45,748 nucleotides of DNA from Acidobacteriota bacterium (GTDB lineage: Bacteria > Acidobacteriota > Terriglobia > Terriglobales > Acidobacteriaceae). A program made the position numbers and the translations under genes. A model generated the notes under the pieces. The model searched no databases. It saw only the letters and a program-made list of their open reading frames with translations, and was not told the origin of the DNA. Positions within the stretch are counted from its first letter, which is position 1, and every line of letters begins with the position of its first letter. The DNA is taken from positions 1 through 45,748 of the forward strand of contig JAJYSV010000035.1 of assembly GCA_021793405.1 (NCBI GenBank). The letters are read 5' to 3'. Below, one piece after another: positions 9,786 through 31,889 of this stretch.

Positions 9786-10997
9786 TCACCAGAGCGGTCC
9801 GGCCTGCCGTCGCAGCTCTTTCAACGGATAGAGCGTGCCTCGCCACAGCACTCCGCCGCGCCATAGGACCAGAATCATCGAGCGCAGCAGTGTTCCTGCA
9901 AACAATAATGTCGCGATGGGAAACAGCGCCAGATAGGCGGGCGAAATGTTGGTCAGCCGCCAATAGCGCAGGTTGAGCAGCATCAGTGCAACCAGTGTCG
10001 CTATCCCGGCCCATCGCGTCGGCCCAGAAATCCACACCGCAGCAAACGGCGTCAGACAAAGAAGAAACATCCCGGCACACGCGGCCAAAAGCAGCGAGGT
10101 ACGAAAGCGGAACGTGGAATAAAGATTTTTCGTAAGGTTGTTCAAAATCCCCCACGCGCTTTCGGCCCACCGGATGCGCACCAGGTCTTTGCCGAACGCA
10201 ACCCGCTGCGCATACCCTTCCCGCTTCACTCGAAACCCCAGGCGCATGTCCTCCAACACCTCCATGCGCAGCTCCGTGTATCCTCCCAGCGCCTCATACA
10301 CAGGTCGGCGAATCAGATTGAACGCGCCCACGCCAATGTAGTCGTTTCGCGCCTTTGGGTCGGCAATCTTCCAAGCCCGGCCAGCCCACACGGAGACACT
10401 TTGAAAGAACCCAATCAGCATCTTCTCGGCAACTCCGTGGAGAATCAGCGTCGGATACAGCACCATGTGATCGCCGCCGCTTTTCCCGGCGTACTCGATG
10501 GCAAGCTGAATGGCGCGCGGATCGAAGATAACATCGGCATCGGTAAACAGTAGCCAGTCGGAGGTCGCACTGGCCGCCGCGACAGCCATGGCGTGCGGTT
10601 TCCCCAGCCAACCCTCGGGCAGCTCCTTGATATGCAGTACGCGCAGGCGCCCCTGCGATTCGGCCGCGGATGCAAGCGCATCCATCAAGCCGCCAGTGGC
10701 ATCCGTCGAGCGGTCATCTACTGCGATGATCCGGAGATTTGGATACTCGCTGGCCAGCAGGCTGCGCAGAGAATGCTCAATCGCCGCGCTCTCATCCTTC
10801 GCCGGGACAATGACAGTGACGGATGGCCACGTGGTCGAGCCATCACTCGCATCGTCAGTTCGCTTCAAAAGATTCGGAACCCGCGGAAGCATCCACAACG
10901 CCGGGATCACGCGGGAAAGCCACGCGGCTGCGATCAGCCATGCAAAGCAGGCGAAGAGAAATCGGCCATGAAAAAACAATGAATGGAACCAAGGCAT
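9786..10997 (-). CDS. GT2 family glycosyltransferase (HpnB-like)
   Basis: This 403-residue membrane glycosyltransferase starts with one N-terminal helix (about 13-37). The GT-A domain follows: S-V-T-V-I-V-P-A-K-D-E (59-69), V-D-D-R-S-T-D (93-99), the metal-binding T-D-A-D (152-155) and the acceptor-side V-L-E-D-M-R-L-G. Three to four C-terminal helices complete it. The E-G-W-x-G-K block and the overall layout resemble hopene-associated glycosyltransferase HpnB and related ceramide-type transferases such as HpnI. It lies about 10 kb from the main hopanoid genes, so a head-group role is inference; another lipid or cell-envelope sugar is equally possible. Its stop is 15 nt from the convergent small secreted protein gene. 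Confidence 0.8.
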   Translation of the reverse strand: MPWFHSLFFHGRFLFACFAWLIAAAWLSRVIPALWMLPRVPNLLKRTDDASDGSTTWPSVTVIVPAKDESAAIEHSLRSLLASEYPNLRIIAVDDRSTDATGGLMDALASAAESQGRLRVLHIKELPEGWLGKPHAMAVAAASATSDWLLFTDADVIFDPRAIQLAIEYAGKSGGDHMVLYPTLILHGVAEKMLIGFFQSVSVWAGRAWKIADPKARNDYIGVGAFNLIRRPVYEALGGYTELRMEVLEDMRLGFRVKREGYAQRVAFGKDLVRIRWAESAWGILNNLTKNLYSTFRFRTSLLLAACAGMFLLCLTPFAAVWISGPTRWAGIATLVALMLLNLRYWRLTNISPAYLALFPIATLLFAGTLLRSMILVLWRGGVLWRGTLYPLKELRRQAGPLW

Positions 10998-16610: not shown

Positions 16611-18089
16611 TTGAAACGAATCCTCACCGTGCTGGCAACGGGATTTTTCCTGGCTGCGGCAACCCATGCCCAGACTCCGGATGCCCCGCTGCCGAATGCG
16701 CCTGTCGCGACAGCGGTCTATTCCACTCCGTCGCCGGCGGATTCAACTTCGCGCATGGTGGCGTGGAACACGTCTGGATCAGCCACCGAGAACGCGGCAG
16801 CCACACCCACGCCCGGCGAAGTGTCGCTCTACACCGTTGTCGATCTGGCATTGCGCAACAGCAAAACCGTCCGCATGGCGGAGGCAGATCAGCAACAAAC
16901 TTTGGCCGCCTGGATGCAGACGCGCGACATCTATATCCCAAACTTTTCGGTGGGCTCCGGCCTCGGGTACTCCTACGGCTTCCCTCTCGGCAACCCCACG
17001 CTTTTCAACGTCCAGTCGCAGTTCATGTTGTTCAGCTATTCGCAACGCGATTACATCCGGTCCGCCCACGCCGCAGCCAAGGCGGCCACGCTGAGCCTGA
17101 AAGATGTGCGCCGACAAGTTATTCTCGACGCCGCTGTGAATTATGTTGAGCTGAGCAAAACCCTAGATGAAATACAGGCGCTGCGGCAGGCCCTTGCGTA
17201 CACTGACACGTTGGTTGGGGTCGTCGAAGACCGCTTGAATGCCGGCCTGGAAAACAAGATGACCCTGACTCAGGCGCAGTTGACCCGCGCGCAAATTCAA
17301 CTCCGGAAAATCCGCCTGGAGGATCATGCGGATGAGTTGCGTCAGCATCTATCCGGCCTGACCGGTCTCGATGCGAATGGCATCACTCCATCTCCATCGT
17401 CGGTTCCGGCTTTGCCCGATCTGGATTTTCAGGGCCTCGTCTCGAAAGAAAACGAGTCGCCCGCCGTTCAGGCTGCGATTGCTACCGCCGATGCAAGAAT
17501 GTACAACGCATGGGGAGACGAAAAACAGAACAACCGCCCAAGCGTAATGGGCGTATTCCAATACAGCCGATTCTCCAGCTTCAACGGTTATCAAAACTAC
17601 TATCTTGCTTTTGAAGCGAACAATATCGCTCTCGGCGTCCAGGCGACATGGCCCCTTTTTGACCGGACCCTGAAAGATAAGGCGCAAGAATCGGCGGCGA
17701 TCGCAAGCCACGAACGTCAGCGGGCCGAACTTGCCAAAATTCAAAACGATGAGGGAAATCTTGCGCTGTGGCACAGTCTGCGCGAACTGGAAGCGCAGGA
17801 GCAAGTGGCCGATCTCCAGCAGCAGCTTGCACAGGACACTCTCGCCTCCATCGTGACGCGGATGAATCAAGGCGCGGCCAACGGACAGCCGGTCCCGCCC
17901 CAGCAGGCCGATCAATATCGTGTTGAGGAACGAACCCGCTTTGTGGGCCTGGAAGATGCTCAGTTCGACGTTACTCGCGTGAAACTCGATCTGCTAAGCG
18001 CCGTGGGAGGCCTGGAAGACTGGGCAAAACAGAGCGCGCAACCCGCAGCCGGCTCCGCCGAGGTTGAGTCTTCATCCTCATCTCATTGA
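16611..18089 (+). CDS. TolC-type outer membrane efflux protein
   Basis: This outer-membrane channel protein has 492 residues. The chosen start is TTG at 16611, preceded by AGGAG at 10 nt and immediately followed by a normal signal peptide (K-R-I-L-T-V-L-A-T-G-F-F, cleavage near A-T-H-A-Q). The in-frame ATG at 16560 would put 17 polar residues ahead of it. The mature protein has the two long helical repeats of the family: L-A-L-R-N-S-K-T-V near 75, Q-A-Q-L-T-R-A-Q near the middle, and A-x-x-E-R-Q-R-A-E-L-A-K-I in the second half. It would complete an export path with the adaptor encoded upstream. Confidence 0.85.
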   Translation: MKRILTVLATGFFLAAATHAQTPDAPLPNAPVATAVYSTPSPADSTSRMVAWNTSGSATENAAATPTPGEVSLYTVVDLALRNSKTVRMAEADQQQTLAAWMQTRDIYIPNFSVGSGLGYSYGFPLGNPTLFNVQSQFMLFSYSQRDYIRSAHAAAKAATLSLKDVRRQVILDAAVNYVELSKTLDEIQALRQALAYTDTLVGVVEDRLNAGLENKMTLTQAQLTRAQIQLRKIRLEDHADELRQHLSGLTGLDANGITPSPSSVPALPDLDFQGLVSKENESPAVQAAIATADARMYNAWGDEKQNNRPSVMGVFQYSRFSSFNGYQNYYLAFEANNIALGVQATWPLFDRTLKDKAQESAAIASHERQRAELAKIQNDEGNLALWHSLRELEAQEQVADLQQQLAQDTLASIVTRMNQGAANGQPVPPQQADQYRVEERTRFVGLEDAQFDVTRVKLDLLSAVGGLEDWAKQSAQPAAGSAEVESSSSSH

Positions 18090-18225
18090 GATCACAACAG
18101 CGTTGCCGCCAGACAGATCTCTTCAATCGCATCCGGATAGGAAAGACGACCAGAGGAACCCTGTCCGCCAGCCATCGGAAAACGGCACTGCTGGACCTTC
18201 AAGTGGTAAAATTAAGCTTGAATCT

Positions 18226-19701
18226 ATGCCTCTAAAGACAATTTTTCTTAACCCGCCCTCCTTTCAGAACTTTGATGGTGGCGCCAGTTCGCGCTGGCCC
18301 GCCACCCGCGAAATTGAATCCTACTGGTACCCTGTCTGGCTAGCATATCCAGCGGGCATGCTGGAAGGTTCGCGCCTGCTCGATGCCCCGCCGCACCATG
18401 TCACCGCGACGGAGACTATCGAAATCTGCAAGCAGTACGAGTTTCTGGTGCTCTTCACCAGCACTCCCGGCTGGCAGGGCGATCAAAAACTGGCGGAAGC
18501 CATCAAGGCAGCAAATCCCTCGATTCGCATCGCATTCGTCGGGCCGCCGGTCACGACATCGCCGGACCGCGCCCTGAACGAGTGCCCGGTGATCGACTTT
18601 GTTTGCCGCCGCGAATTTGATTTCTCAGTCGTCGAGTTTGCCAATGGCAAACCGCTGAATGAGATTCTCGGCATCAGCTACCGCAACAACGGCGAGATCG
18701 TGCACAATCCCGATCGCCCGCAGGTTGAAGACCTGGATGCCATGCCCTGGGTTACCGATGTCTACGCCCGCAACATGGACGTGACGAAATATAACGTTCC
18801 CTTCCTGCTGCATCCGTATGTGTCGCTCTACTCCACACGCGGCTGTCCGGCCCAATGCACATTTTGTCTCTGGCCCCAGACCCTCAGCGGGCACGCCTGG
18901 CGGAAGCGTTCGACCGATGATGTTGCCGCGGAAATGGCCCACGCGAAAGAACTTTTCCCGCACGTGAAAGAGTACTTCTTCGACGACGACACGTTCAATA
19001 TCCAAAAGGCGCGCACGGTCGAGTTGTGCGAGAAGCTAAAGCCTCTGAATCTCACATGGTCCTGCACCTCCCGCGTCACTACAGATCGCGAGACATTGAA
19101 GGCGATGCGTGAAGCCGGCTGCCGTTTGCTCATCGTGGGCTTCGAATCGGGCGATCCGCAGATTCTGAAGAACATCAAGAAAGGCGCCACGGTGGAACGC
19201 GCACGCGACTTTGCGCGCGATTGTCACGATCTCGGCCTGACCATCCACGGCGATTTCATTCTTGGCCTGCCCGGCGAAACCAAGGAGTCCATCCGCAACA
19301 CGATCAGTTTCGCCAAGTCGCTCGATGTCGAAACAATTCAGGTTTCCATTGCGCATGCGTATCCGGGAACAGAGTTTTATGACTACGCCAAATCGAACGG
19401 CTTCATCATCAACAACGGCGCCATGGTCGATGAAGAGGGTCATCAACTAGCCCACGTCGAATACCCCGGCCTGCCCACGGAATACATTCTGGAAATGGTG
19501 CATCGCTTTTATGACGAGTATTATTTCCGTCCCAAAGCGGCATGGCGCGTGGTCAGCAAGGCAATTGCGAATCGCGATCTGCCCCGCTTGTATGTGGAAG
19601 CGAAGGCCTTTCTGAAATTGCGCGCGCAACGCAACCGCGTGGTGGCAAAGAGCAAACGGGACAAGGCTGCGCTGGCGGCGACGCAACAAGTGGGAGCCTG
19701 A
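18226..19701 (+). CDS. hpnJ: Hopanoid radical SAM protein HpnJ
   Basis: This is a B12-binding-type radical SAM enzyme of 491 residues. The N-terminal half is a cobalamin-binding-like domain starting with the family-typical K-T-I-F-L-N-P-P-S-F-x-x-F-D-G-G-A. The 4Fe-4S cluster motif is C-P-A-Q-C-T-F-C (Cys207, 211, 214), followed by F-D-D-D-T-F and G-L-P-G-E-T. HpnJ is required for the cyclitol-ether head group, converting a glucosamine-type hopanoid to the cyclitol form. The ATG at 18226 is chosen; the 54 residues read upstream are low quality. It is on the plus strand, apart from the other hpn genes, 136 nt after the TolC-type gene, and ends in a strong terminator. HpnI and HpnK are not seen here. 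Confidence 0.88.
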   Translation: MPLKTIFLNPPSFQNFDGGASSRWPATREIESYWYPVWLAYPAGMLEGSRLLDAPPHHVTATETIEICKQYEFLVLFTSTPGWQGDQKLAEAIKAANPSIRIAFVGPPVTTSPDRALNECPVIDFVCRREFDFSVVEFANGKPLNEILGISYRNNGEIVHNPDRPQVEDLDAMPWVTDVYARNMDVTKYNVPFLLHPYVSLYSTRGCPAQCTFCLWPQTLSGHAWRKRSTDDVAAEMAHAKELFPHVKEYFFDDDTFNIQKARTVELCEKLKPLNLTWSCTSRVTTDRETLKAMREAGCRLLIVGFESGDPQILKNIKKGATVERARDFARDCHDLGLTIHGDFILGLPGETKESIRNTISFAKSLDVETIQVSIAHAYPGTEFYDYAKSNGFIINNGAMVDEEGHQLAHVEYPGLPTEYILEMVHRFYDEYYFRPKAAWRVVSKAIANRDLPRLYVEAKAFLKLRAQRNRVVAKSKRDKAALAATQQVGA

Positions 19702-20694: not shown

Positions 20695-20710
20695 AAGAAT
20701 CGGATTCTTC
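20694..20710. terminator. Small palindrome between convergent stops
   Basis: GAAGAATC and its exact complement are separated by one base, exactly between the stop of the second DMT gene and the stop of hpnE. There is no T-run and no room for a loop without opening inner pairs, so its use as a bidirectional terminator is uncertain. Confidence 0.3.
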
Positions 20711-22163
20711 ACGGGAATAGCCGCATCAGCCCCTTGGCGGGCAAATCTGGTTGCAGATATTTCTGCGGGCGTCCGGACGCTTGCGTCAAAGCCTCCGCCG
20801 CTAGATAGCCGCTACGCACCGCACCCTCCATGGTCGAAGGCCAGCGGGTGTTAGTCCAGTCCCCTGCTAAGAAAAGTTGCGGCCACGCAGTGGTTGGCCC
20901 CGGCCGGTACGCATCGATCCCAGGCGTGACGGAAAACGTTGCCCGCACCTCTTTGACGACCGCAGCCTTGACCAGCTTCGCCTCTCGCACCACTGGAAAG
21001 AATTCTGCCAGCTCCCGCAATGCCAGATCGAGTATCTCCTGACGTGACTTTGTCACCAGCGACTTGGACGCGCTCACCACCAGCTCCAGATAACTTCCTG
21101 AACCCTCCGCGCGTCGCTGCGGCTGCAACAGAGATTTGTTGTACATCCATTGGATCGTGGTGTCGAGCAGAACCGCATGTTCCAGTTCCGTAATAGTGCG
21201 ATCGAACCAGAGATGAATGCCCGTAATCGGCGAATGCTGAAAGTGTTCTAGTTGCCCGGCGAGCTTTTCTTTCGCGCCATCTGTCCGCGCCGGTAATTGC
21301 GGCAACAGTTTCCGCACGGACTCAAACGGAACCGCCAGCACCACGGCGTCCGCCTCGATGCTTCCACCTTCATATTGAATTAGCCAACGGCGACTTTGGT
21401 CGTCATATTCAAAGCCGCCAACGCCTGCACGCAAGCGTACTTCGCCGCCATGAGATTCGATAAATCCGAGCGTATGCCCATACAGTTCGCTCAGCGGAAT
21501 GGTTGGCACTCCCATCCACCCGGCCTGTGCTGACTGCATAAACGATGTGCGGAATACCATCCCCGCATACTGCACCGATATACGATCCAGGTCCTCATTC
21601 AGGGCACTGACCAGTACGGGATTCCAGAAGTGATCGATGGCGCGCCGTGTTTGCCCATGCCGAGCCAGCCAGTGTGCGAAATTCTCTCCGTCATCTGCGG
21701 GCACGCCTCGCAGGAAGGCAATCATTCCGCGGCTAACGGCAAGTTTGTCCGCCATCGACAGTGCAGAAGCGCGAAGAAAGGAAACTGCAGTATGCAGCGG
21801 TGCCGGCAAGAATTGTGGACGCAGCACACTCCGCCGGCCGCCCGGCTCAAGAAATGTAATTTGATCGAACCAGCGAATCTCGTCGGCAACCCCCAGTTGA
21901 CGATAGAAGGCGATGAGGTTGGTGCAGCAGCCCAGAAGTACATGCTGGCAGTTATCGACGACTTCTCCGGTGCCGGGATGTTCATAGGAAGATGCGCGTC
22001 CGCCGACATATGGTCGCCGCTCGACAAGGTGAACGCGATACCCGGATTCCACCAGCGCGCATGCGGCCGACAAGCCGGCAAGACCGCCGCCGACCACAGC
22101 AACATCGCGAATCTTCGGGGAGCGGTTTCGATCATCCGTGTCGAATTGGGCCGGAGTCATCAC
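20709..22163 (-). CDS. hpnE: Hydroxysqualene dehydroxylase HpnE
   Basis: This FAD enzyme of the amine-oxidase/phytoene-desaturase family converts hydroxysqualene to squalene, the last of the three Hpn squalene steps. The dinucleotide-binding motif V-A-V-V-G-G-G-L-A-G-L-S-A-A starts near residue 21, and E-R-R-P-Y-V-G-G-R-A-S-S follows. The C-terminal FAD contact is L-F-L-A-G-D-W-T-N-T-R-W-P-S-T-M-E-G-A-V-R-S-G. At 484 residues the length fits the family. It is the last gene of the minus-strand hopanoid run, 16 nt after hpnD. Confidence 0.92.
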   Translation of the reverse strand: MMTPAQFDTDDRNRSPKIRDVAVVGGGLAGLSAACALVESGYRVHLVERRPYVGGRASSYEHPGTGEVVDNCQHVLLGCCTNLIAFYRQLGVADEIRWFDQITFLEPGGRRSVLRPQFLPAPLHTAVSFLRASALSMADKLAVSRGMIAFLRGVPADDGENFAHWLARHGQTRRAIDHFWNPVLVSALNEDLDRISVQYAGMVFRTSFMQSAQAGWMGVPTIPLSELYGHTLGFIESHGGEVRLRAGVGGFEYDDQSRRWLIQYEGGSIEADAVVLAVPFESVRKLLPQLPARTDGAKEKLAGQLEHFQHSPITGIHLWFDRTITELEHAVLLDTTIQWMYNKSLLQPQRRAEGSGSYLELVVSASKSLVTKSRQEILDLALRELAEFFPVVREAKLVKAAVVKEVRATFSVTPGIDAYRPGPTTAWPQLFLAGDWTNTRWPSTMEGAVRSGYLAAEALTQASGRPQKYLQPDLPAKGLMRLFP

Positions 22164-22179
22164 AAATATGTGCGATCTT

Positions 22180-23127
22180 TTAACTCGCCTGTGCGCTGCG
22201 CAAGCGAAACGCCATCCACAATCCGCGCAATAGAATCCATATCTTCTCCATCGTCGGCACCTTCACTTTCGACGAGAACACCTGGTACTGTTGACTCTCG
22301 ATGCGCTGCAACAAGCGACTGTAAATTGTGACCAGCACCCACAGCGCCGCCCGGCTGTCCGCGGAGATGAGCGGCAACAGACTCTCCGCCGCCGTGTAAT
22401 ACTGGCGCGCGCGCGACGCTTCCAGTTCCATCAATGCGCGTTCATCCTGTGTCAGGGGTCGATTGCCGCGAATCGAAGATAGTTCCTCCACGGTAACGTG
22501 ATGGCGTTCCAGATCGTCGAGCGGAAGATAGATCCTGCCCCGTTCCGCATCCTCGCGCACATCGCGCAAAATATTCGTCAACTGAAATGCAATTCCCGTT
22601 TGCTCCGCCAATTGCTCCGCGCGCGGATCGCTGTAGCCGAAGATGCGAATGCAAACCAGGCCCACGACAGAGGCAACGAAATAGCAATATCGATACATAT
22701 CTTCGAAGGTTTGATAGGTTGCAAGTTGGCTGTTCACGGATGCCCCCGTGGCGGACTGGCCGTCATGTTCCGGCAGAGCAGTCAAATCCATCATGGTTCC
22801 CCGCACCAGTTGATCGAGCAGTTCCGTGGAAATGCTGAAGCGTTGTTGCGTATCGCGCAAGGCGACAAAAACAGGATTGTCCGTGGACCCACCTGCCGCC
22901 GCGCGATGCCATTCTTCCAGCCACAGCTGCATCGCTTGGAGTCGCTCTTCGCCGGGCAATCGCTCATCGTCCGCCAGGTCGTCCGCATGGCGCATAAAGG
23001 CATAGACGGCGCACATGGCAGCACGCTTCGGCTTCGGCAACACGCGAAAAGCATAGTAGAAGTTTTTTGCCTCGCGGCGCGCGATGGCCTCGCAGGCCGC
23101 ATACGCTTGTTCAACGGAAGAACTCAC
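22180..23127 (-). CDS. hpnD: Presqualene diphosphate synthase HpnD
   Basis: This trans-isoprenyl diphosphate synthase-like enzyme joins two farnesyl diphosphates to presqualene diphosphate. Both Asp-rich motifs are present: H-A-D-D-L-A-D-D (Asp49, 50, 53) and N-I-L-R-D-V-R-E-D in the second half, followed by G-R-I-Y-L-P. The 315 residues fit the family. Its start overlaps the hpnC stop (ATGA, 23124-23127), and hpnE follows by 16 nt. HpnD is told from HpnC by its order and by the closer match to phytoene/squalene synthases (R-x-L-P-K-P-K-R-A-A-M). Confidence 0.92.
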   Translation of the reverse strand: MSSSVEQAYAACEAIARREAKNFYYAFRVLPKPKRAAMCAVYAFMRHADDLADDERLPGEERLQAMQLWLEEWHRAAAGGSTDNPVFVALRDTQQRFSISTELLDQLVRGTMMDLTALPEHDGQSATGASVNSQLATYQTFEDMYRYCYFVASVVGLVCIRIFGYSDPRAEQLAEQTGIAFQLTNILRDVREDAERGRIYLPLDDLERHHVTVEELSSIRGNRPLTQDERALMELEASRARQYYTAAESLLPLISADSRAALWVLVTIYSRLLQRIESQQYQVFSSKVKVPTMEKIWILLRGLWMAFRLRSAQAS

Positions 23128-24095
23128 GCAGCCTGCCTCGCGGTGAGTTTGGCTGCAAACGCGCGCAACAGCAATGCAGCCTTGCGCGGCTTCGAGATGA
23201 CCGGTCGAGAGCGCAGCACGTCGTAGTTCTGGCTTGCGATGGCGCGCAGAATCTCCTGGCCGCCGCTGCTGAACAATTGCAGATCGACGGCGAGTTCTCG
23301 GTCGACCCGATCGAGCAAGGGCAGCCCCTGGACAAACAGTTGTTGCGCATACGCAACCTCGTATTCCATCAGATTGCGAAATTCCGGAGTGAAGCGCTGG
23401 TCATGAATTTGCTGCTCAGTCACGCCGAATCGTTCCATATCGACCAGCGGCAGGTAGATGCGGTTGCGACGCCGATCGTCTTCCCGCACATCCTGCCAGA
23501 AGTTGGCGAGTTGAAGCGCAGTGCAGGTGAAATCCGACAGCGGAAACAACTCCGGTTCGCGATACCCGCAGGCATACAGAACCAGGTGCCCAACCGGGTT
23601 CGCAGAGTTGCGGCAATAGCCGAATAGATCCTCCATGGTCCGATAGCGAGCGACGGTCTGATCCTGACGAAATGCAACCAGCAACGCGGCGAAAGGCTCT
23701 TTGGGAATATTGCAGACACGAATGGTCTCCGCCAGCGCCACGAAGACAGGGTGACGCGTCATTCCGCGATAGCAGGCGTCGAGTTCCCGATTCCAAAAAT
23801 CCAGCAGCGCCAGCGACTGCTGCGGATTTCCCACTTCATCTCCCAAGTCATCGGAGATGCGGCAGTAGGCGTAGATACTTTGAAAATGCGGACGCAGCCG
23901 CTTCGGCAAGAACCACGTGGCCACATGAAAATTCTCATAGTGAGACTCGGCCAATTCACGACAGAATCTCTGCGCCTCCGTCAGACTCGGCGCATGCTCG
24001 GGCATCCGGTATTGCGCCGGAAGTTTTTCCCACGCCGCTGCCAATATCTCTTCGATATTTCTGTTTGGCGCCGTAGGTGGGCCACTAACGCTCAT
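23124..24095 (-). CDS. hpnC: Hydroxysqualene synthase HpnC
   Basis: It converts presqualene diphosphate to hydroxysqualene. The 323-residue product has D-D-L-G-D-E (Asp82, 83, 86) and W-Q-D-V-R-E-D-D, the metal-diphosphate sites of the squalene/phytoene synthase family. H-Y-E-N-F-H-V-A-T-W-F-L-P-K-R is typical of HpnC. The ATG at 24095 has an AGGG site 6 nt upstream; an upstream TTG at 24122 is less likely. The start lies inside the end of the preceding dehydrogenase gene (11-nt overlap), and the stop overlaps hpnD, so the genes are tightly coupled. Confidence 0.92.
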   Translation of the reverse strand: MSVSGPPTAPNRNIEEILAAAWEKLPAQYRMPEHAPSLTEAQRFCRELAESHYENFHVATWFLPKRLRPHFQSIYAYCRISDDLGDEVGNPQQSLALLDFWNRELDACYRGMTRHPVFVALAETIRVCNIPKEPFAALLVAFRQDQTVARYRTMEDLFGYCRNSANPVGHLVLYACGYREPELFPLSDFTCTALQLANFWQDVREDDRRRNRIYLPLVDMERFGVTEQQIHDQRFTPEFRNLMEYEVAYAQQLFVQGLPLLDRVDRELAVDLQLFSSGGQEILRAIASQNYDVLRSRPVISKPRKAALLLRAFAAKLTARQAA

Positions 24096-25149
24096 GTGGA
24101 CCCTCGCCGGGGTGTATCGCAATTTTGATGTCTTCGGCGTGGCGCATCAGCCGCCGGAACACCGGAACCAGTTCTTCCAGCGGCGCTCCGCCTGTCAGAA
24201 ATTTATTGCTCTGGAAGCGGCCGCTGGCGATCCACTCGAACGCGCGGCGGCATACCGACGGCCGATGATGAAAGCTCGCCCGCAAGGTGAGATTGTTGTA
24301 ATGCAGGCGATTGGTATCGAGTTCCACTTTGGTGCCGGCCGCGCAACCGCCGAAAAAATTGACTACACCGCCTTTGCGTACCATTTCCACGGCCCACTGC
24401 CAGGTCATCGGCAACGCCACGGCTTCGATTACTACATCCGCGCCCCGTCCCTGCGGCGTCAGCGCTCGCACTGCGGCGACCACGTCCTCTGTGGCTGTGG
24501 TCTGGACGACCTGGCGGGCCCCGAAAGAGCGCGCCAACTCGACCTGCTCGGCATGTTTTACCACCGCGATCACATCGATATTCGTCAGCGATGCCATGTG
24601 AATAAACATCAGTCCTATCGCACCAGCGCCAATCACTACCATCTGGTCTTTTGGCCGAGCGGCAGTCTCATCCATGCCCTGCAGCACGCAGGCAAGCGGC
24701 TCTGTCATGGCGGCATGGTCGAGCGGCACATTCGGAGGAACAAGCAGGGTATTCCTGGCGACGATACGCGCGGGGATGCGCATGTACTCTGCATAGGCGC
24801 CGTTGTTGAACAGAAGATCGTCGCAGAGGTTTTCCTGTTCGCGCCGGCAAAAATAACATTCCCCGCACGGCGCCGAATTGATGGCGACAACGCGATCCCC
24901 ATTCCTGAACGTCGTGACTCCAACGCCCACATGTGAAACGACCCCGGCCATTTCATGCCCGAAAGGAACGGGCGGCCGCAACATTTTCTTGTGATAGCCG
25001 CGACGAAATACCTTCAAGTCGGTCCCGCAAGTAAGGGCGGCGGCAACACGCACAACAATCTCCCCAGGACCGGCTTGGGGCACGGGCAGTCGTACAATCC
25101 GCACATCTTCTTTGCCGTACAAGACGGCCGCGTTCATTTCATCAGCCAT
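24085..25149 (-). CDS. Zinc-dependent MDR dehydrogenase (second of two)
   Basis: This medium-chain alcohol/polyol dehydrogenase-type enzyme has 354 residues. Catalytic zinc ligands are Cys41 (T-C-G-T-D) and His65-Glu66 (G-H-E). The structural zinc site is Cys95, 98, 101 and 109. The nucleotide-binding fold starts at V-I-G-A-G-A-I-G in the middle. Its 3' end overlaps the hpnC start by 11 nt, so it is translated as part of the hopanoid operon. It is only a distant paralogue of the dehydrogenase encoded upstream. Likely roles, by inference: reduction of ribosylhopane to bacteriohopanetetrol, or oxidation/reduction of the sugar-like head group. A housekeeping sorbitol/threonine-type role cannot be excluded. 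Confidence 0.85.
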   Translation of the reverse strand: MADEMNAAVLYGKEDVRIVRLPVPQAGPGEIVVRVAAALTCGTDLKVFRRGYHKKMLRPPVPFGHEMAGVVSHVGVGVTTFRNGDRVVAINSAPCGECYFCRREQENLCDDLLFNNGAYAEYMRIPARIVARNTLLVPPNVPLDHAAMTEPLACVLQGMDETAARPKDQMVVIGAGAIGLMFIHMASLTNIDVIAVVKHAEQVELARSFGARQVVQTTATEDVVAAVRALTPQGRGADVVIEAVALPMTWQWAVEMVRKGGVVNFFGGCAAGTKVELDTNRLHYNNLTLRASFHHRPSVCRRAFEWIASGRFQSNKFLTGGAPLEELVPVFRRLMRHAEDIKIAIHPGEGPHER

Positions 25150-25230: not shown

Positions 25231-26337
25231 CTACGGTTGAATCACAATCTTCATGGAGTCCGGCTTCGGCTCGGACGCGAACGCGATGGCTTCCGCCGCC
25301 TGCTCCAGCGGAAAGCGATGGGAGATCAACCGAGTGAGATCGAAGTGGTCGGTGTAGCCGTTCAATACCAACTGAGAGGCTTCCTGCTGAACCTCCGCGG
25401 AAGAACTGTAGGAACCTATAAGAGACTTCTCGTCCATGCAAATCGCAGATGGATCGATACTAACTTCGCTGCGCTGCGTGGCCGCAAACAGCAGCACACG
25501 GCCGCCGAAACGCACCGCCTCCATCGCCGTGCGAATCAGCGCATTGCCCGCCACAGCAACAATTACAACATCCGCGCCACGACCTTCCGTCAGGCTTTTT
25601 GCAATGGCGATTGGATCTTCTTTGTCTGCACGGATGGGGTGATGCAGATCGAATTGCGCGGCGGCTTGATGGCGCGAAACGTACAGGTCCGAAGTCAACA
25701 CCGTCGCGCCGGTTCGCCTTGCCAGCGCGGCCAGCAAAATTCCGATCGACCCCTGTCCGATCACCAGTACGGTCTCGTCGGCGGCAAGACGCAGATTGTG
25801 AATCGCCTTAAAGCATGTATTTACCGGCTCAATCCACAGCGCCTGTTCAAACGGCACGTGGTCGGGAATAGCAATTAGCCCGCGCTCCACAATCCAGTCC
25901 ATCACGCGAATGTATTCCGCGAAGCCGCCGCCAGACGGCTCGAATCCGGCCGTACAACCGACGCGCTTGTACGTATCGCATTGCGAGTATGTCTTTTTGC
26001 GGCAATAGTAACAGCCCTTCCCGCAAGGAACATGATGGAAGGCCATGACTCGGTCGCCGACCTTCCAGCCAGTTACTTTATCGCCGACGGCGGCAATGAC
26101 TCCAGCCATCTCGTGGCCAAAAATTCTAGGAGCGGCATGGGAGCCTGAATGAATTTTCTTCAGGTCCGTGCCGCAAATGCCGCAGCTGTGAATGCGTACC
26201 AGGACTTCGCCCGGACTAATGGCCGGAACGGGCACTTCCTCCACGCGAATATCGTTGATACCGCGATAGACGGCCGCTTGCATGGTTGCCGGCACGTCTC
26301 TGATCGTCAAGGTTTCTGTATCTGTCACAGTGATCAT
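25231..26337 (-). CDS. Zinc-dependent MDR dehydrogenase (first of two)
   Basis: This 368-residue medium-chain dehydrogenase has catalytic zinc ligands Cys55 (G-I-C-G-T-D) and His75-Glu76, and structural zinc ligands Cys105, 109, 112 and 120. The dinucleotide fold contains V-I-G-Q-G-S-I-G. The ATG at 26337 comes 1 nt after the hpnG stop, with a GGAG-like site inside the end of hpnG; the 25 residues that can be read upstream are within hpnG in another frame and are rejected. The tight junction ties it to HpnG, which releases adenine to leave ribosylhopane, whose reductase has to my knowledge not been assigned to a gene. It is a strong candidate for that step; the evidence is context only. Confidence 0.85.
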   Translation of the reverse strand: MITVTDTETLTIRDVPATMQAAVYRGINDIRVEEVPVPAISPGEVLVRIHSCGICGTDLKKIHSGSHAAPRIFGHEMAGVIAAVGDKVTGWKVGDRVMAFHHVPCGKGCYYCRKKTYSQCDTYKRVGCTAGFEPSGGGFAEYIRVMDWIVERGLIAIPDHVPFEQALWIEPVNTCFKAIHNLRLAADETVLVIGQGSIGILLAALARRTGATVLTSDLYVSRHQAAAQFDLHHPIRADKEDPIAIAKSLTEGRGADVVIVAVAGNALIRTAMEAVRFGGRVLLFAATQRSEVSIDPSAICMDEKSLIGSYSSSAEVQQEASQLVLNGYTDHFDLTRLISHRFPLEQAAEAIAFASEPKPDSMKIVIQP

Positions 26338-26338
26338 T

Positions 26339-27016
26339 TTATTCCGCTTGCTCCAAAACGTAACGTAATGCCTGGCAGATTCGTTGGGACGCCTGCGATG
26401 CCTGTTTGCCAAGCCGGACAGCCGTTGGAATCAGCCAAGGACGTAACGCAATATACACGGTAAACGAAGATTCGCGAATCCCGCCAAGCTCATCGGTAAA
26501 GAGGTTCAGGTCCGGCAACTTGTCCCAGGCCTCATCGCTGATCGCTCGCAAGGTTCGAAACGGCAGGCTGCGCGCCTGTGCGAACCTCGCGACCGTCGCT
26601 GCCTCCATATCGACCAGGTCTGCATTCCAGCGATCCGCCAGGCTCGACTTTTCGACGGCATTGACCACATGGTCCGTAGTCACCAGAATCCCCCTACCAT
26701 CTTTGCATTCAAATCGCTCGCCCGTCTTGGCGTCGATGACGGTGCCCGGCCAATAGACCGTATCGGCTGCCATCCCACCACGCAGGGCTCCGGCATATCC
26801 AACCGAAATGACGGATTGTATCGGGCCTCTGGACGCTGCCAGCTCGAAAGCGAGCGTCACGCGCTCACCCCCCATGCCCGCACAGACGACAATCGCCCGA
26901 TCGCATTCCCAGATGCTCGTGCCTTCGCGATCTGAGACAGCACGGCTCGGCCAGTCGCGCACAAGCGGCGCAACTTCGCGCGGCAGCGCGGCGAGAATTG
27001 CGATGCGCCCCTTCAT
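26339..27016 (-). CDS. hpnG: Adenosylhopane nucleosidase HpnG
   Basis: This protein of the purine nucleoside phosphorylase/MTA-SAH nucleosidase fold has 225 residues. The family layout is visible: I-A-I-L-A-A-L-P-R-E at the N-terminus, V-C-A-G-M-G, V-I-S-V-G-Y-A-G-A-L, D-M-E-A-A-T-V-A (the ribose-binding M-E pair) and R-A-I-S-D-E-A (catalytic Asp). HpnG removes adenine from adenosylhopane to give ribosylhopane or its phosphate. Start and stop are both coupled: 4-nt overlap with hpnA and 1 nt to the following dehydrogenase gene. Confidence 0.9.
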   Translation of the reverse strand: MKGRIAILAALPREVAPLVRDWPSRAVSDREGTSIWECDRAIVVCAGMGGERVTLAFELAASRGPIQSVISVGYAGALRGGMAADTVYWPGTVIDAKTGERFECKDGRGILVTTDHVVNAVEKSSLADRWNADLVDMEAATVARFAQARSLPFRTLRAISDEAWDKLPDLNLFTDELGGIRESSFTVYIALRPWLIPTAVRLGKQASQASQRICQALRYVLEQAE

Positions 27017-28008
27017 GAGTTGGGGGCATACCCGTGGATGCGAAACCAGTCGATGGCGGCGTGCAGCGCTCTGTCCACCGGAAGCACCTGATAGCCCAAA
27101 TCTCGTTCCGCCTTGGCCGAGCTGGCAAACATTTTCTTCTTTCCCATGCGCACGGCTTCCACGGTGGCGCGCGGCTCACGTCCACGAATGCGGCCCGTAA
27201 TCCATTCGTCAAAAAATGCAAACGTCATCGCTACGGAATGTGGCACCCGCATCGTGGGGGAAGGCAAACCCGTCATGGCCGCCATGCGATCCAGAATCTG
27301 CTTCAACGTGAGATTTTCACCCCCTAAAATATAGCGTTCTCCCGGCGTGCCGCGCTCGAGCGCAGCGACATGCATGGCCGCCACGGCCTGCACGTCCACC
27401 AGATTCAGACCGGTATCCACGTAGGCTGGAAATTTTCGATTGAGAAAATCCACCACGATACGGCCCGTCGGTGTGGGCTTGGCATCATTCGCTCCAATCG
27501 GCGTGGTCGGGTTCAGAATGACGACGTGTTGGCCCAGCAGTGCCGCCGCAATCGCTTCCTGCTCGGCCAGAAACTTCGAACGCTTGTAGTGGCCGATCAT
27601 GTTGTCGATCGACACAGGAGTATCTTCATTGACGACCTCGCCATCCGAGCGAAAACCCATAGTCGCAACACTGGAGGTATAGACAACGCGGCGCACGCCC
27701 GTTTCTCCCGCCAGTCGCAGTAGCGCTTTCGTTCCTTCGACGTTTGCCGCGTACATCGTCTTTGGATCGGGCACCCAAAGCCTGTAGTCCGCCGCAACAT
27801 GGACCAGCGCATCACAGCCGACCAGCGCGCCGCGAAGATTCTCCGGTTGCAGCAGGTCGCCCCGTACCAACTCCGCGTTCAGACCTGCGAGATGCTCCGT
27901 GCGGCTGGTTGTCCGCGTCAGCAAGCGCAGATCTGCGCCCGCGGCGTGGAGCGACTGGGCGACATGGCTCCCGACAAATCCAGTAGCTCCGGTGAGGAAG
28001 ATGCGCAT
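27013..28008 (-). CDS. hpnA: Hopanoid-associated NAD-sugar epimerase HpnA
   Basis: This extended short-chain dehydrogenase of 331 residues has the Rossmann motif T-G-A-T-G-F-V-G at 7-14 and the catalytic pair in Y-K-R-S-K (Tyr and Lys), with S-S-V-A-T-M ahead of it for the catalytic Ser/Thr. The sequence matches the dihydroflavonol-reductase-like HpnA family found in hopanoid clusters; its exact reaction is not settled. It opens the sub-operon hpnA-hpnG-dehydrogenase-dehydrogenase-hpnC-hpnD-hpnE, with a 225-nt gap upstream that probably holds a promoter. Confidence 0.9.
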   Translation of the reverse strand: MRIFLTGATGFVGSHVAQSLHAAGADLRLLTRTTSRTEHLAGLNAELVRGDLLQPENLRGALVGCDALVHVAADYRLWVPDPKTMYAANVEGTKALLRLAGETGVRRVVYTSSVATMGFRSDGEVVNEDTPVSIDNMIGHYKRSKFLAEQEAIAAALLGQHVVILNPTTPIGANDAKPTPTGRIVVDFLNRKFPAYVDTGLNLVDVQAVAAMHVAALERGTPGERYILGGENLTLKQILDRMAAMTGLPSPTMRVPHSVAMTFAFFDEWITGRIRGREPRATVEAVRMGKKKMFASSAKAERDLGYQVLPVDRALHAAIDWFRIHGYAPNS

Positions 28009-28233: not shown

Positions 28234-28671
28234 TTAGTCCAGCGCTTCGGCCTGAATGCCGATATTTTTCTCACCGGTGGCCTTCTTTTCCCAATATCGC
28301 TGCACCCAGGCTTCCCAGCTTTTCCCTGCCGCGGAATCGCGCCCTGTAAACGCCAGGCCGGCAATCTCAGAATACGGAATCGACACGCGCTCCGATGTAT
28401 CTTTCGGCATGATGCGCACAATTGATCGATGCAGCGCGGGTGCAGGCCTGCGATCGAAGATGTATCCCTCAATGCGGCCGCCGGTTTTCAGCGTGATGGT
28501 CACATCCCCGCGATACCCAAACGCCTGCTCCAGCGCGGCGCGAGTTTCTTCCTCGGTCGCCATTGCTGGAATCCATCCTTCCAGCACCTCGTGCTCTGCT
28601 CCCGGTGCGACTTCCATCGCATCAGGATTGGTCGCTGCATTCACAGGCGGATTCGAATGGGACTCCGTCAT
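28234..28671 (-). CDS. Small Sm/SH3-like protein coupled to hpnH
   Basis: This 145-residue soluble protein has no signal peptide. After an acidic, disordered N-terminus (1-37) comes a compact region at about 46-112: a short helix (E-E-T-R-A-A-L-E-Q-A-F), then strands G-D-V-T-I-T-L-K-T-G-G-R-I-E-G-Y-I-F-D, S-I-V-R-I-M-P and R-V-S-I-P-Y-S-E-I-A-G-L-A-F-T-G-R-D. This order is like an Sm/SH3-type small barrel. A Trp-rich helix (S-W-E-A-W-V-Q-R-Y-W) follows. Its ATG overlaps the hpnH TGA (28668-28671), so it is made with HpnH. I do not recognise a named family; regulation or binding in hopanoid synthesis is inference only. Confidence 0.75.
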   Translation of the reverse strand: MTESHSNPPVNAATNPDAMEVAPGAEHEVLEGWIPAMATEEETRAALEQAFGYRGDVTITLKTGGRIEGYIFDRRPAPALHRSIVRIMPKDTSERVSIPYSEIAGLAFTGRDSAAGKSWEAWVQRYWEKKATGEKNIGIQAEALD

Positions 28672-29792
28672 ACGCGCGTTTCCTCCATCGCCCTGGCTGG
28701 TAGGTCAATCTTGACCAGAGGATTGTGCGCATGCACCGGCTGTACCGGCTGATTCAGCAAGTCCAGCGCGGTACGGTCTGGATACAGTGTCATGGTCGCC
28801 TTCACGGTCGCCCATAGTCCTTTCAGCGAGCCAAAGGTGAAGTTCACTCCGGAAGCTTCATATCCAGAATGGACCATGCAGTTCGCACATTTTGGATTTC
28901 CGGATTCAGTCCCGTAATGGCCCCACTCCGTTGCTTCCATCAATTCGGGGAAGGTGTCCGCGTAGCCATCCTGGAGCAAATAGCAGGGCTTTTGCCAGCC
29001 AAACACGTTATAGGTCGGCATGCCCCATGGGGTGCAGGCAAAGTCGCGCTTGCCCATCAGAAATTCCATGTACATCGGCGATGCGTTGAAGCGCCAGCTC
29101 TTCTTGCGATTAGCGAGAATTGCACGGAAAAGCCGACGGGAACGGGCACGACCGAGGAAGTGCTTCTGGTCAGGAGCCTTCTCGTACGTATAGCCCGGCG
29201 CCACCATCATCGACTCCACGCCCGCCTGCATCATCTCGTCGAAGAACGCGCGCACGCTATTCGGGTCCGCCCCATCGAACAGAGTTGTATTCGTAGTGAC
29301 GCGAAAACCCTTCGCTACAGCCTCGCGAATCCCCTCGATCGCCTTGTCGTACCCGCCTTCCAGGCAAACGGAAAAGTCATGATGCTCCCTCTGTCCGTCC
29401 ATGTGTACAGAGAAAGAAAGGTATTTGCTTGGCTTGAACAGGTGCAATTTTTCCTTTAGCAGCAGCGCATTGGTGCACAAATATATGTATTTCTTTCTCT
29501 CAACCAATCCTGCAACTATTTCCCCTATCTGCGGATGCAGAAGGGGTTCTCCACCTGGAATAGAGACCATCGGAGTCCCACATTCGTCCACCGCGCGGAA
29601 GCATTCCTCGGGCGTCAACTGCTTTTTCAAAATATGCGCAGGGTATTGGATCTTTCCACACCCGGCGCAGGCAAGGTTGCAGCGGAACAGAGGCTCCAGC
29701 ATCAGAACCAGGGGATAGCGTTTGCGGCCGCTCCAGCGCTGGCGCAACACGTAGGTTGCCACCGTCCACATTTGTGAGATTGGCACTGCCAT
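28668..29792 (-). CDS. hpnH: Adenosylhopane synthase HpnH (radical SAM)
   Basis: It adds a 5'-deoxyadenosyl group to the side chain of diploptene, making adenosylhopane, the first C35 hopanoid. The 374-residue product has the radical SAM cluster motif C-N-L-A-C-A-G-C (Cys38, 42, 45), the G-G-E-P motif near 80, and later conserved cysteines (C-T-P-W-G, C-Y-L-L, C-A-N-C-M-V-H-S-G-Y-E) typical of HpnH. It sits 69 nt after shc and overlaps the small Sm-like gene by 4 nt. Confidence 0.95.
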   Translation of the reverse strand: MAVPISQMWTVATYVLRQRWSGRKRYPLVLMLEPLFRCNLACAGCGKIQYPAHILKKQLTPEECFRAVDECGTPMVSIPGGEPLLHPQIGEIVAGLVERKKYIYLCTNALLLKEKLHLFKPSKYLSFSVHMDGQREHHDFSVCLEGGYDKAIEGIREAVAKGFRVTTNTTLFDGADPNSVRAFFDEMMQAGVESMMVAPGYTYEKAPDQKHFLGRARSRRLFRAILANRKKSWRFNASPMYMEFLMGKRDFACTPWGMPTYNVFGWQKPCYLLQDGYADTFPELMEATEWGHYGTESGNPKCANCMVHSGYEASGVNFTFGSLKGLWATVKATMTLYPDRTALDLLNQPVQPVHAHNPLVKIDLPARAMEETRV

Positions 29793-29861: not shown

Positions 29862-31889
29862 TCAACTTGCCTGCCTCAGGTCTTCGGCCTGCCTGGCTCG
29901 ACGATACGTGGTCAGCGCCAGCAGGGGAAAATAATTGCGGTACATGTGATACGACAAATAAAAAACTCGCGGAAATCCCGTTCCCGTGAACTGCTCTTCC
30001 GTCCACGACCCATCCGATCGCTGTTGCTGCAGCAACCAGCGTATTCCCTTGGCGACAGAATCACTGCGAACATCTCCAGCCGCCAGCAAGCCAAGAATGG
30101 CCCACGCCGTTTGAGAAGCAGTGCTGACTCCAACCCCGCGCTGGGTTGGATCGTCGTAGCTCGCGCAACTCTCGCCCCAGCCTCCGTCAGGATTCTGTAC
30201 CATGCGAATCCATTCCGCTGCCTGCAGAATCTGCGGTTCGTGATCCCACACGCCCATCGCCTCTAATCCGCGCAACACCAGAAAGGTCCCGTACAGGTAA
30301 TTCACTCCCCATCGCCCAAACCAGCTTCCGTCTGACTCCTGCTCGCGATAGATAAACTGGATCGCCTTCTCCACCCGCGGATCCTGCCGGGTGACGCCGT
30401 AGCTCGCGAGCATCTCCAGAATGCGCCCAGTGATATCGACGGTCGGCGGATCGAGCATGGCATTGTGATCGGCGAACGGAATATGCTGGAAAATCATCTT
30501 CGTGTTGTCTTTATCGAAGCTGGCCCAGCCTCCGTTCTTGCACTGCATCGCCCAGATCCACTGGATCGCCCGCTGCGTGACATCGTACTGATATCGCTCA
30601 CGAGGGTTTTCGACTTTGTTCAGCGCCAGCAGCACCTGCGCCGAGTCGTCCACATCCGGATAAAACTCATTATTGAACTCAAAGTACCAGCCGCCCGGCT
30701 CCACATGGGGAACCTTCACAGACCAGTCGCCCTTGTGCCGTACCTCCTTGGACAATATCCAGTCGGCAGCCTTCAGCAGGCGCGGATCACGACTGGGAAC
30801 ATCCGCTTCTCCCAGTGCGAAGATCGCATACGCGGTGTCCCACACAGGCGACTTGCAGGGCTGCATGCGAAACGTGGCTTCGCTTTTTCCTGGGACACCC
30901 GGTTCTTCAATTCCTAGCTTTTCGAATTCATCTAATGCGCGAATCACCTGCGGGTCGTCCAGCGAATGGCCCTGACACCGCAACGCGATGACGGCATTCA
31001 AAATTCCCGGATAAATCGCTCCCAGACCATCCGACATTTCCAGCCGCTGAAGCATCCACTTCTCCGCTCGCTTCAGCGCAATCGCGCGTAACGGTCGTAC
31101 ATGGATGCGTTCGCACCAGTGAATCATTCGATCGAAGACAAGGAAGAAATTGCGCCAGCTAAAAATCCGTTTATTCCAGTGCAGGTGCAGATTCGCATGC
31201 TCACGCCCACCGACAAACAATTCCTGAATCCCCTGTTCCGCAGGGAGCTTCTTAAATGGCTTCTTCGCATACGCAATCGAAAGCGGCACCAGCATCGCGC
31301 GCGACCACGAGGAAATTTCGTACAGATTGAAATAAAACCACTTCGGAAACAAGACAATTTCCGGCGGGATGGCGGGAACGGCGTTGTAATCGTACTGGCC
31401 GAAGAAGCACAGATACAGCTTGGTGTAGGTGTTGACTTCGGTCGCGCCGCCGTGCGCTAAAATCCACTCGCGCGCTTTCTCCAATAAGGGATCATCAGCG
31501 GACCAGCCCATGAGTTTCAGCGCGAAATACGCCTTCACGGTGGCGCTGATATTGGATGGACCGCCGGCATAAATGTTCCAGCCGCCGTCTGCGTTCTGGT
31601 GTCGCAGGATCTGCGTAATCGCCCGCCGCATCCGGCCTTCATCTCCAGTGCCGAACAGCCTATGCAGCATAATGTAGTCGGACTCCAGCGTCGTGTCCGC
31701 TTCCAACTCGCCGCACCAGTAGCCGTCAGGATGCTGCTGCGACAGCAGGAGTTCGCGCGAGGAGGCAATCGCGTGTTCGACCTCATCCAGGCTCGCGTCC
31801 ACCCTTCCGAATCGCACGGCAACGGGTTGTTTAACTTGTGAGAGTGGATTCATCAATGAATACAGAATCTCTTTCTGTTCAGATCCCAT
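29862..31889 (-). CDS. shc: Squalene-hopene cyclase
   Basis: This monotopic membrane enzyme folds squalene into hopene/hopanol. The 675 residues match the family. The proton-donating D-x-D-D motif is D412-V-D-D415, in F-Y-P-D-V-D-D-S-A-Q. Several QW repeats (for example Q-N-x-D-G-G-W, Q-x-P-D-G-G-W-G-E, Q-x-S-D-G-S-W) stabilise the alpha-alpha barrels. The start could also be the Met at residue 13 (31853), because the first ATG lacks a clear ribosome site. A promoter-like pair lies just upstream. hpnH follows by 69 nt and ispH precedes by 88 nt. Confidence 0.96.
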   Translation of the reverse strand: MGSEQKEILYSLMNPLSQVKQPVAVRFGRVDASLDEVEHAIASSRELLLSQQHPDGYWCGELEADTTLESDYIMLHRLFGTGDEGRMRRAITQILRHQNADGGWNIYAGGPSNISATVKAYFALKLMGWSADDPLLEKAREWILAHGGATEVNTYTKLYLCFFGQYDYNAVPAIPPEIVLFPKWFYFNLYEISSWSRAMLVPLSIAYAKKPFKKLPAEQGIQELFVGGREHANLHLHWNKRIFSWRNFFLVFDRMIHWCERIHVRPLRAIALKRAEKWMLQRLEMSDGLGAIYPGILNAVIALRCQGHSLDDPQVIRALDEFEKLGIEEPGVPGKSEATFRMQPCKSPVWDTAYAIFALGEADVPSRDPRLLKAADWILSKEVRHKGDWSVKVPHVEPGGWYFEFNNEFYPDVDDSAQVLLALNKVENPRERYQYDVTQRAIQWIWAMQCKNGGWASFDKDNTKMIFQHIPFADHNAMLDPPTVDITGRILEMLASYGVTRQDPRVEKAIQFIYREQESDGSWFGRWGVNYLYGTFLVLRGLEAMGVWDHEPQILQAAEWIRMVQNPDGGWGESCASYDDPTQRGVGVSTASQTAWAILGLLAAGDVRSDSVAKGIRWLLQQQRSDGSWTEEQFTGTGFPRVFYLSYHMYRNYFPLLALTTYRRARQAEDLRQAS

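Follow-up and report, generated by a model that had tools for sequence, protein, structure and literature searches.

A pair of zinc-dependent dehydrogenases in acidobacterial hopanoid clusters: candidates for the reduction of ribosylhopane to bacteriohopanetetrol

The hopanoid gene cluster in the 45,748-nt stretch of acidobacterial DNA analysed here (the window) includes two zinc-dependent medium-chain dehydrogenases, MDR1 and MDR2, which lie between hpnG and hpnC and whose linkage to hopanoid genes persists across families of Acidobacteriota. We tentatively propose, with a probability of about 40%, that MDR1 and MDR2 form a lineage-specific module for the C35 hopanoid side chain that reduces ribosylhopane to bacteriohopanetetrol; they are unlikely to be the general answer for ribosylhopane reduction. 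The evidence on their role is gene order and motifs. Hopanes serve widely as molecular fossils, and the acidobacterial linkage supplies two concrete candidate genes for the step from ribosylhopane to bacteriohopanetetrol and predicts unrelated enzymes for this step in bacteria without the pair.

The hopanoid cluster of the window

The minus strand of the window carries a run of hopanoid genes in the order ispH, shc, hpnH, a gene for a 145-aa protein, hpnA, hpnG, MDR1, MDR2, hpnC, hpnD and hpnE. Matches above the NCBIfam cut-offs were found for Shc, HpnH, HpnA, HpnC and HpnE. The genes discussed below are:

29862..31889, minus strand: shc, squalene-hopene cyclase
28668..29792, minus strand: hpnH, radical SAM adenosylhopane synthase
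28234..28671, minus strand: gene following hpnH, for an uncharacterised 145-aa protein without a hit in Pfam or NCBIfam
27013..28008, minus strand: hpnA, NAD-dependent sugar-epimerase-like, 477 bits, 4-nt overlap with hpnG
26339..27016, minus strand: hpnG, nucleoside-phosphorylase-like, 83.1 bits against TIGR03468, below the cut-off of 187.1
25231..26337, minus strand: MDR1, zinc-dependent medium-chain dehydrogenase, 368 aa, predicted NAD-type, directly after hpnG
24085..25149, minus strand: MDR2, second zinc dehydrogenase, 354 aa, predicted NADP-type, 81 nt after MDR1
23124..24083, minus strand: hpnC, squalene synthase HpnC, with an uncertain start codon in an ORF reaching to 24122
22180..23127, minus strand: hpnD, 252 bits, under the cut-off of 278.6
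20709..22163, minus strand: hpnE
18064..19701, plus strand: hpnJ, B12-binding radical SAM protein beyond hpnE, 756 bits, above the cut-off

Given its low TIGR03468 score, the name hpnG rests on context and gene order. A relative of the 145-aa protein, detected with its own profile, is encoded just after hpnH in 28 of 80 HpnH loci (some scoring merely 57-103 bits), including loci titled Planctomycetota, Nitrospira and Verrucomicrobia, and the protein is a possible partner of HpnH. Some 10 kb from hpnE, a glycosyltransferase gene (9786-10997, minus strand) resembles HpnB weakly (157 bits, cut-off 379).

The sequence-only reading had placed the start of MDR1 1 nt past the hpnG stop, and the coordinates agree: the single base 26338 separates the hpnG stop codon (26339-26341) from the MDR1 ATG at 26337. 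This gap depends on the choice of start, because residues 1-18 of MDR1 are poorly conserved in the alignment and residues 1-10 have low confidence in the predicted structure. An alternative in-frame ATG at residue 19 (near 26283) marks the beginning of the conserved core, and the listed ORF reaching 26412 is a longer version with a TTG start. As for the ribosome site claimed inside hpnG, a GGAG is indeed present at the end of that gene, but it lies 13 nt ahead of the ATG, which is a long spacing.

Both domains of the zinc-containing MDR family, ADH_N and ADH_zinc_N, were found in MDR1 above the gathering score (PF08240, 95.3 bits, cut-off 23.5; PF00107, 65.5 bits, cut-off 31.8), together with the zinc ligands and the structural cysteines. 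The claim that the zinc ligands are intact extends well beyond the window: C52, C55, H75, E76 and E170, as well as the structural cysteines C105, C109, C112 and C120, do not vary across the 66 aligned rows, a set in which a few genomes are present twice, fetched with different ORF starts. The structural lobe of the window MDR1 contains one additional residue, giving C-x3-C (2 of the 66 rows) where C-x2-C is usual. MDR2, about 35% identical to MDR1, also matches both Pfam domains (PF08240, 91.8 bits, cut-off 23.5; PF00107, 87.3 bits, cut-off 31.8), and the predicted structures of MDR1 and MDR2 have mean pLDDT values of 92.0 and 91.9, respectively.

Conservation of the linkage in Acidobacteriota

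We searched 396 acidobacterial genomes for MDR1 (E <= 1e-60) and HpnH (E <= 1e-50), scoring at most five best first-look candidates per genome. There were 66 MDR1 matches, or 65 after setting aside genome G095, and 99 genomes with HpnH (98 over the cut-off). MDR1 and HpnH occurred together in 59 genomes, HpnH only in 40 and MDR1 only in six. The match in G095 (L073) was rejected as an MDR1 orthologue, being 38% identical, lacking MDR2 and branching outside the MDR1 group; it is nonetheless counted among the 66. HpnH was not detected in three genomes whose MDR1 has hpnA and MDR2 as neighbours, namely G107, G203 (84% complete) and G258 (88% complete); this may reflect either true absence or incompleteness.

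Among the 40 HpnH-positive genomes with no MDR1 match at E <= 1e-60, assembly gaps may account for G007, G234 and G265. The contig of G265, in which MDR2 is present, ends some 520 nt past hpnA, so that the absence of MDR1 is probably due to such a gap; in G007, neither dehydrogenase was found despite the presence of HpnH.

In the family of the window (f1), the next hopanoid gene upstream of MDR1 is hpnG in all 45 MDR1-bearing genomes, and the same holds for both such genomes of f2 and the only one of f50. The distance from the hpnG stop to the start of the MDR1 core in these three families does not exceed 202 nt, with the exception of L023 (563 nt) and L048 (684 nt). Family f29 has hpnA upstream of MDR1, with hpnA-MDR1-MDR2 kept together in 13 of 13 genomes and the two dehydrogenase genes overlapping by 4 nt in 12 of them and by 16 nt in one; hpnG adjoins MDR1 in none of the 13, and three of them showed it 2-7 kb downstream. 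The stretches fetched around MDR1 in f39 (three genomes) and f84 (one genome) contain no recognised hopanoid gene.

Of 50 named HpnH-positive genomes, 21 match MDR1 at E <= 1e-50. These comprise 17 of the 18 acidobacterial-titled records, one MAG titled Arcobacter, Nostoc, Calothrix and one match of 34%, that of Baaleninema (L128/G399), which was rejected. In the 18 non-cyanobacterial loci, three of which (L200, L201 and L215) repeat loci L181, L194 and L172, hpnG is directly upstream of MDR1 in 13, including Bryobacterales, Solibacteraceae and Acidoferrales records. Of the remaining five, L203 has a 188-aa ORF between hpnG and MDR1, and the other four are truncated stretches or showed no hpnG. 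MDR2 immediately follows MDR1 in 17 of the 18, the last stretch being cut. The Arcobacter-titled MAG (L197, locus L216) has hpnA-hpnG-MDR1-MDR2 in the acidobacterial order, and its title is probably wrong. All three acidobacterial loci with hpnG in range among the 80 HpnH loci (L172, L181 and L194) have hpnG-MDR1-MDR2. A survey of hopanoid clusters for adjacent hpnG and MDR genes, the check that the sequence-only reading had named for its proposal, thus found the linkage to be kept both in the family of the window and in most of the named loci, and the adjacency of hpnG and MDR1 is more than chance.

The linkage also survives where the cluster is broken. The cluster of G123 is in three pieces, shc-hpnH-ug3-hpnA, hpnG-MDR1 and MDR2-hpnC-D-E, the two-gene unit hpnG-MDR1 lying some 50 kb from hpnA. 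Where MDR2 does not adjoin MDR1, all 16 fetched stretches show it immediately next to hpnC and hpnD (15 genomes with MDR1 elsewhere and G265, in which MDR1 was not found), with hpnE present as well in 15 and an hpnJ homologue in nine. After the cluster breaks up, each half of the dehydrogenase pair stays with hopanoid genes.

Co-occurrence and cofactor fingerprints of the pair

In a test of 30 genomes, MDR2 was found in all 25 that have MDR1 and in one of the other five (G265). A tree of 56 rows places the sister pairs, that is, the MDR1-MDR2 pairs found away from hopanoid genes (see below), in one MDR1 group (support 100/99) and one MDR2 group (96/97); the hopanoid-linked MDR2 rows form one group (95/93) and the MDR1 backbone is without resolution.

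NAD(H) binding is usually marked by an acidic residue where the second Rossmann strand ends, and this position in MDR1 (D217) is D in 65 and E in one of the 66 rows. In MDR2, position 198 is K in 22, R in nine and N in eight of 39 rows, and position 199 is mostly R (27 rows) or H (ten rows); 37 of the 39 combine one of K, R and N at 198 with one of R and H at 199. Residues of this basic type at these positions are the usual sign of NADP(H) binding. The two fingerprints are therefore opposite, predicting an NAD-type MDR1 and an NADP-type MDR2, and a reduction with NADPH would fit MDR2 better.

The two enzymes share a lysine (K60 in MDR1, K46 in MDR2), present in 66 of 66 MDR1 rows and 39 of 39 MDR2 rows, at the position of the proton-relay histidine of liver alcohol dehydrogenase, a residue that is not a defining feature of the MDR superfamily as a whole. 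Two paralogues from the same genome, those in which the motif is readable, have histidine there.

Limits of the distribution

Most acidobacterial clusters without MDR1 have the order shc-hpnH-hpnA-hpnG. In 16 such loci that bear hpnG (14 checked gene by gene), neither MDR1 nor MDR2 was found beside hpnG. Unrelated MDR genes occur in L116 (between hpnA and hpnH, 112 bits) and L096 (upstream of shc, 150 bits). Another of the 16 loci, L097, belongs to genome G064, which has an MDR1-MDR2 sister pair elsewhere, apart from this MDR-free hopanoid cluster.

Outside the phylum, 21 of the 80 HpnH loci searched with our own profiles bear hpnG and are not titled acidobacterial, and none of them has MDR1 or MDR2 beside hpnG; cyanobacterial loci account for 16 of them, and their hpnG genes, which score weakly (67-93 bits), may encode other nucleosidases. 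Six plasmid loci make up the sample of Pseudomonadota (L220, L221 and L223-L225) and Actinomycetota (L222, Streptomyces); hpnG was found in five of them and MDR1 or MDR2 in none, including the hpn locus of Methylobacterium bullatum (L223). A general ribosylhopane reductase would be expected in every genome with HpnH, and MDR1 was found in 59 of the 99 acidobacterial ones. We therefore rejected MDR1 as a general ribosylhopane reductase, since it was not found in the other 40 and does not lie beside hpnG in the other phyla sampled; non-orthologous enzymes possibly reduce ribosylhopane in bacteria without MDR1.

Sister MDR1-MDR2 pairs also occur in G213, G327 and G368, genomes in which neither HpnH (E <= 1e-50) nor shc (E <= 0.001) was found. 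The presence of the sister pair away from hopanoid genes in these three genomes and in G064 suggests that its activity may be broader.

In all three f39 loci (L068, L069 and L070), a gene resembling those for proline dehydrogenase, as judged from its sequence, lies upstream of the pair, close to it in two and about 1.6 kb off in L068. The copies are 70-73% identical to that of L070, and two of the three genomes are without detectable HpnH or shc. Calothrix and Nostoc (L217 and L218) encode a solo MDR1 homologue, 42-43% identical and sharing the D-x-K-K motif; the 1.5 kb fetched on each side contained neither MDR2 nor any hopanoid gene that we could recognise.

Proposed role and alternatives

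The sequence-only reading took MDR1 for the enzyme that reduces ribosylhopane. Its linkage to hpnG, its intact zinc sites of the polyol-dehydrogenase type and a step that lacks an established enzyme speak for this, and MDR1 is a fair candidate. That reading left MDR2 unaccounted for, and it sits poorly with the NAD-type fingerprint, with the 40 HpnH-positive genomes that gave no MDR1 match, with the absence of MDR1 beside hpnG in the other phyla sampled and with the sister pairs outside hopanoid loci. In the reading that we prefer, a two-dehydrogenase module would have been recruited into the hopanoid cluster of Terriglobia, Bryobacterales, Acidoferrales and their relatives, and the substrate of the pair, which we infer along with the direction, would be the C35 side chain that derives from ribose and is released by HpnG. 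The ring-opened aldehyde of ribosylhopane would be reduced at C-35, yielding bacteriohopanetetrol. MDR2, with its NADP-type fingerprint, seems no less likely than MDR1 to catalyse this reduction; MDR1 would be an NADH-linked reductase or a partner re-oxidising a side-chain hydroxyl, and the pair may carry out more than a single step. The linkage of hpnG and MDR1, the co-occurrence of MDR2 (25/25), the invariant zinc ligands and a polyol-type fold argue for such a module. Against it stand the genomes with HpnH and no MDR1, the separation of hpnG from MDR1 in f29, the sister pairs, bacteriohopanetetrol production by Chloracidobacterium thermophilum, which lacks ug2 (see below), and an NAD-type MDR1 for a reaction that is reportedly NADPH-dependent in an extract. 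An elaboration that we consider very doubtful is a redox relay resembling the polyol pathway, with MDR2 reducing ribosylhopane with NADPH and MDR1 oxidising a side-chain hydroxyl with NAD, so setting the stereochemistry or a keto intermediate, both enzymes coming from a subfamily of zinc dehydrogenases in which lysine replaces the relay histidine.

Several other explanations compete with the module. MDR1 might reduce ribosylhopane with NADH (or NADPH) and need no partner, as its position as the closest neighbour of hpnG in f1, the two-gene unit in G123 and the intact zinc sites would suggest; D217, the constant company of MDR2, the f29 gene order (0/13) and the sister pairs in genomes without detectable HpnH or shc make this unlikely. 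The pair might instead act after bacteriohopanetetrol, oxidising a hydroxyl with NAD+ and reducing the ketone with NADPH to alter the stereochemistry or to provide a keto intermediate for the head group, with ribosylhopane reduced elsewhere, as in bacteria without the pair. The opposite fingerprints and the co-occurrence would be explained, as would the HpnH-positive genomes without MDR1 and the presence of HpnJ in the window and of its homologue in nine of the 16 MDR2-hpnC stretches, but the nearest neighbour of MDR1 is hpnG or hpnA, which act before bacteriohopanetetrol or at an unknown step, and we consider this quite unlikely.

HpnA, an NAD-dependent epimerase-like protein, has itself been suggested as the reductase (PMC5462960), in which case the dehydrogenases would do something else. 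Its gene adjoins hpnG or hpnH in many loci, among them MDR1-free acidobacterial and many cyanobacterial ones; yet, according to evidence cited in the surveyed passages of the same paper, Burkholderia cenocepacia does not require it for bacteriohopanetetrol and some producers have no hpnA, which leaves HpnA a rather improbable answer. The pair might, finally, serve as a general dehydrogenase module, of the polyol or amino-acid type, and reside in the hopanoid cluster without acting on hopanoids. Sister pairs away from hopanoid genes, the proline-dehydrogenase-like gene in the f39 loci, the three genomes without detectable HpnH and shc, and the solo homologues of Nostoc and Calothrix in short stretches with no recognised hopanoid gene would all be accommodated, but the linkage persists across families and each half keeps to hopanoid genes after break-up, and we find such a module highly improbable.

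Comparison with known clusters and enzymes

The linkage of hpnG with the dehydrogenases has been in print since 2017 under the names ug1 and ug2. The acidobacterial clusters A and C of Sinninghe Damste et al. (2017; PMC5462960) share with the window the gene orders hpnA-hpnG-ug1 and ug2-hpnC-D-E; in the passages surveyed, the gene after hpnA in Acidobacteria is named hpnG and ug2, about 350 aa long, is described as a Zn-binding alcohol dehydrogenase. By position, MDR1 is most likely ug1; likewise, MDR2 is most likely ug2 and the 145-aa protein ug3. Those passages of PMC5462960 give no function for ug1, do not call it a dehydrogenase and do not tie ug1 or ug2 to ribosylhopane; they propose hpnA for the reduction step and note that C. 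thermophilum makes bacteriohopanetetrol with ug2 missing. The earlier statement that the step has no assigned gene still holds in a 2025 paper, whose surveyed passages call the enzyme converting ribosylhopane to bacteriohopanetetrol "not yet established" (PMC12583986). The titles, abstracts and open passages that formed the scope of our survey included none naming a ribosylhopane reductase, and none was found to propose these dehydrogenases for that role.

Two specific assignments were rejected on score: L-threonine 3-dehydrogenase (tdh, TIGR00692; 151.2 bits for MDR1 and 146.2 for MDR2 against a cut-off of 458.35) and scyllo-inosose 3-dehydrogenase IolM (NF041097; 147.2 and 155.8 bits, respectively, against 450). 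Fold searches (Foldseek E-values as low as 2.7e-33; VIA Z as high as 40.8) returned many near-equal polyol and alcohol dehydrogenases and no pointer to a substrate. MDR1 and MDR2 resemble the polyol and threonine MDRs (sorbitol, ketose, butanediol and L-threonine 3-dehydrogenases) in fold, zinc-ligand positions and the GxGxxG coenzyme motif, and are 20-31% identical to the nearest solved structures among the rows listed, which are polyol, threonine, butanediol, ketose and other alcohol dehydrogenases; they differ from structures 4cpd and 4ej6 in having lysine rather than histidine at the relay position. Bodlenner and co-workers are said to have described, in 2015, an extract of Methylobacterium organophilum that reduces ribosylhopane in an NADPH-dependent manner, which is the same reaction as the one proposed here for the MDR pair.
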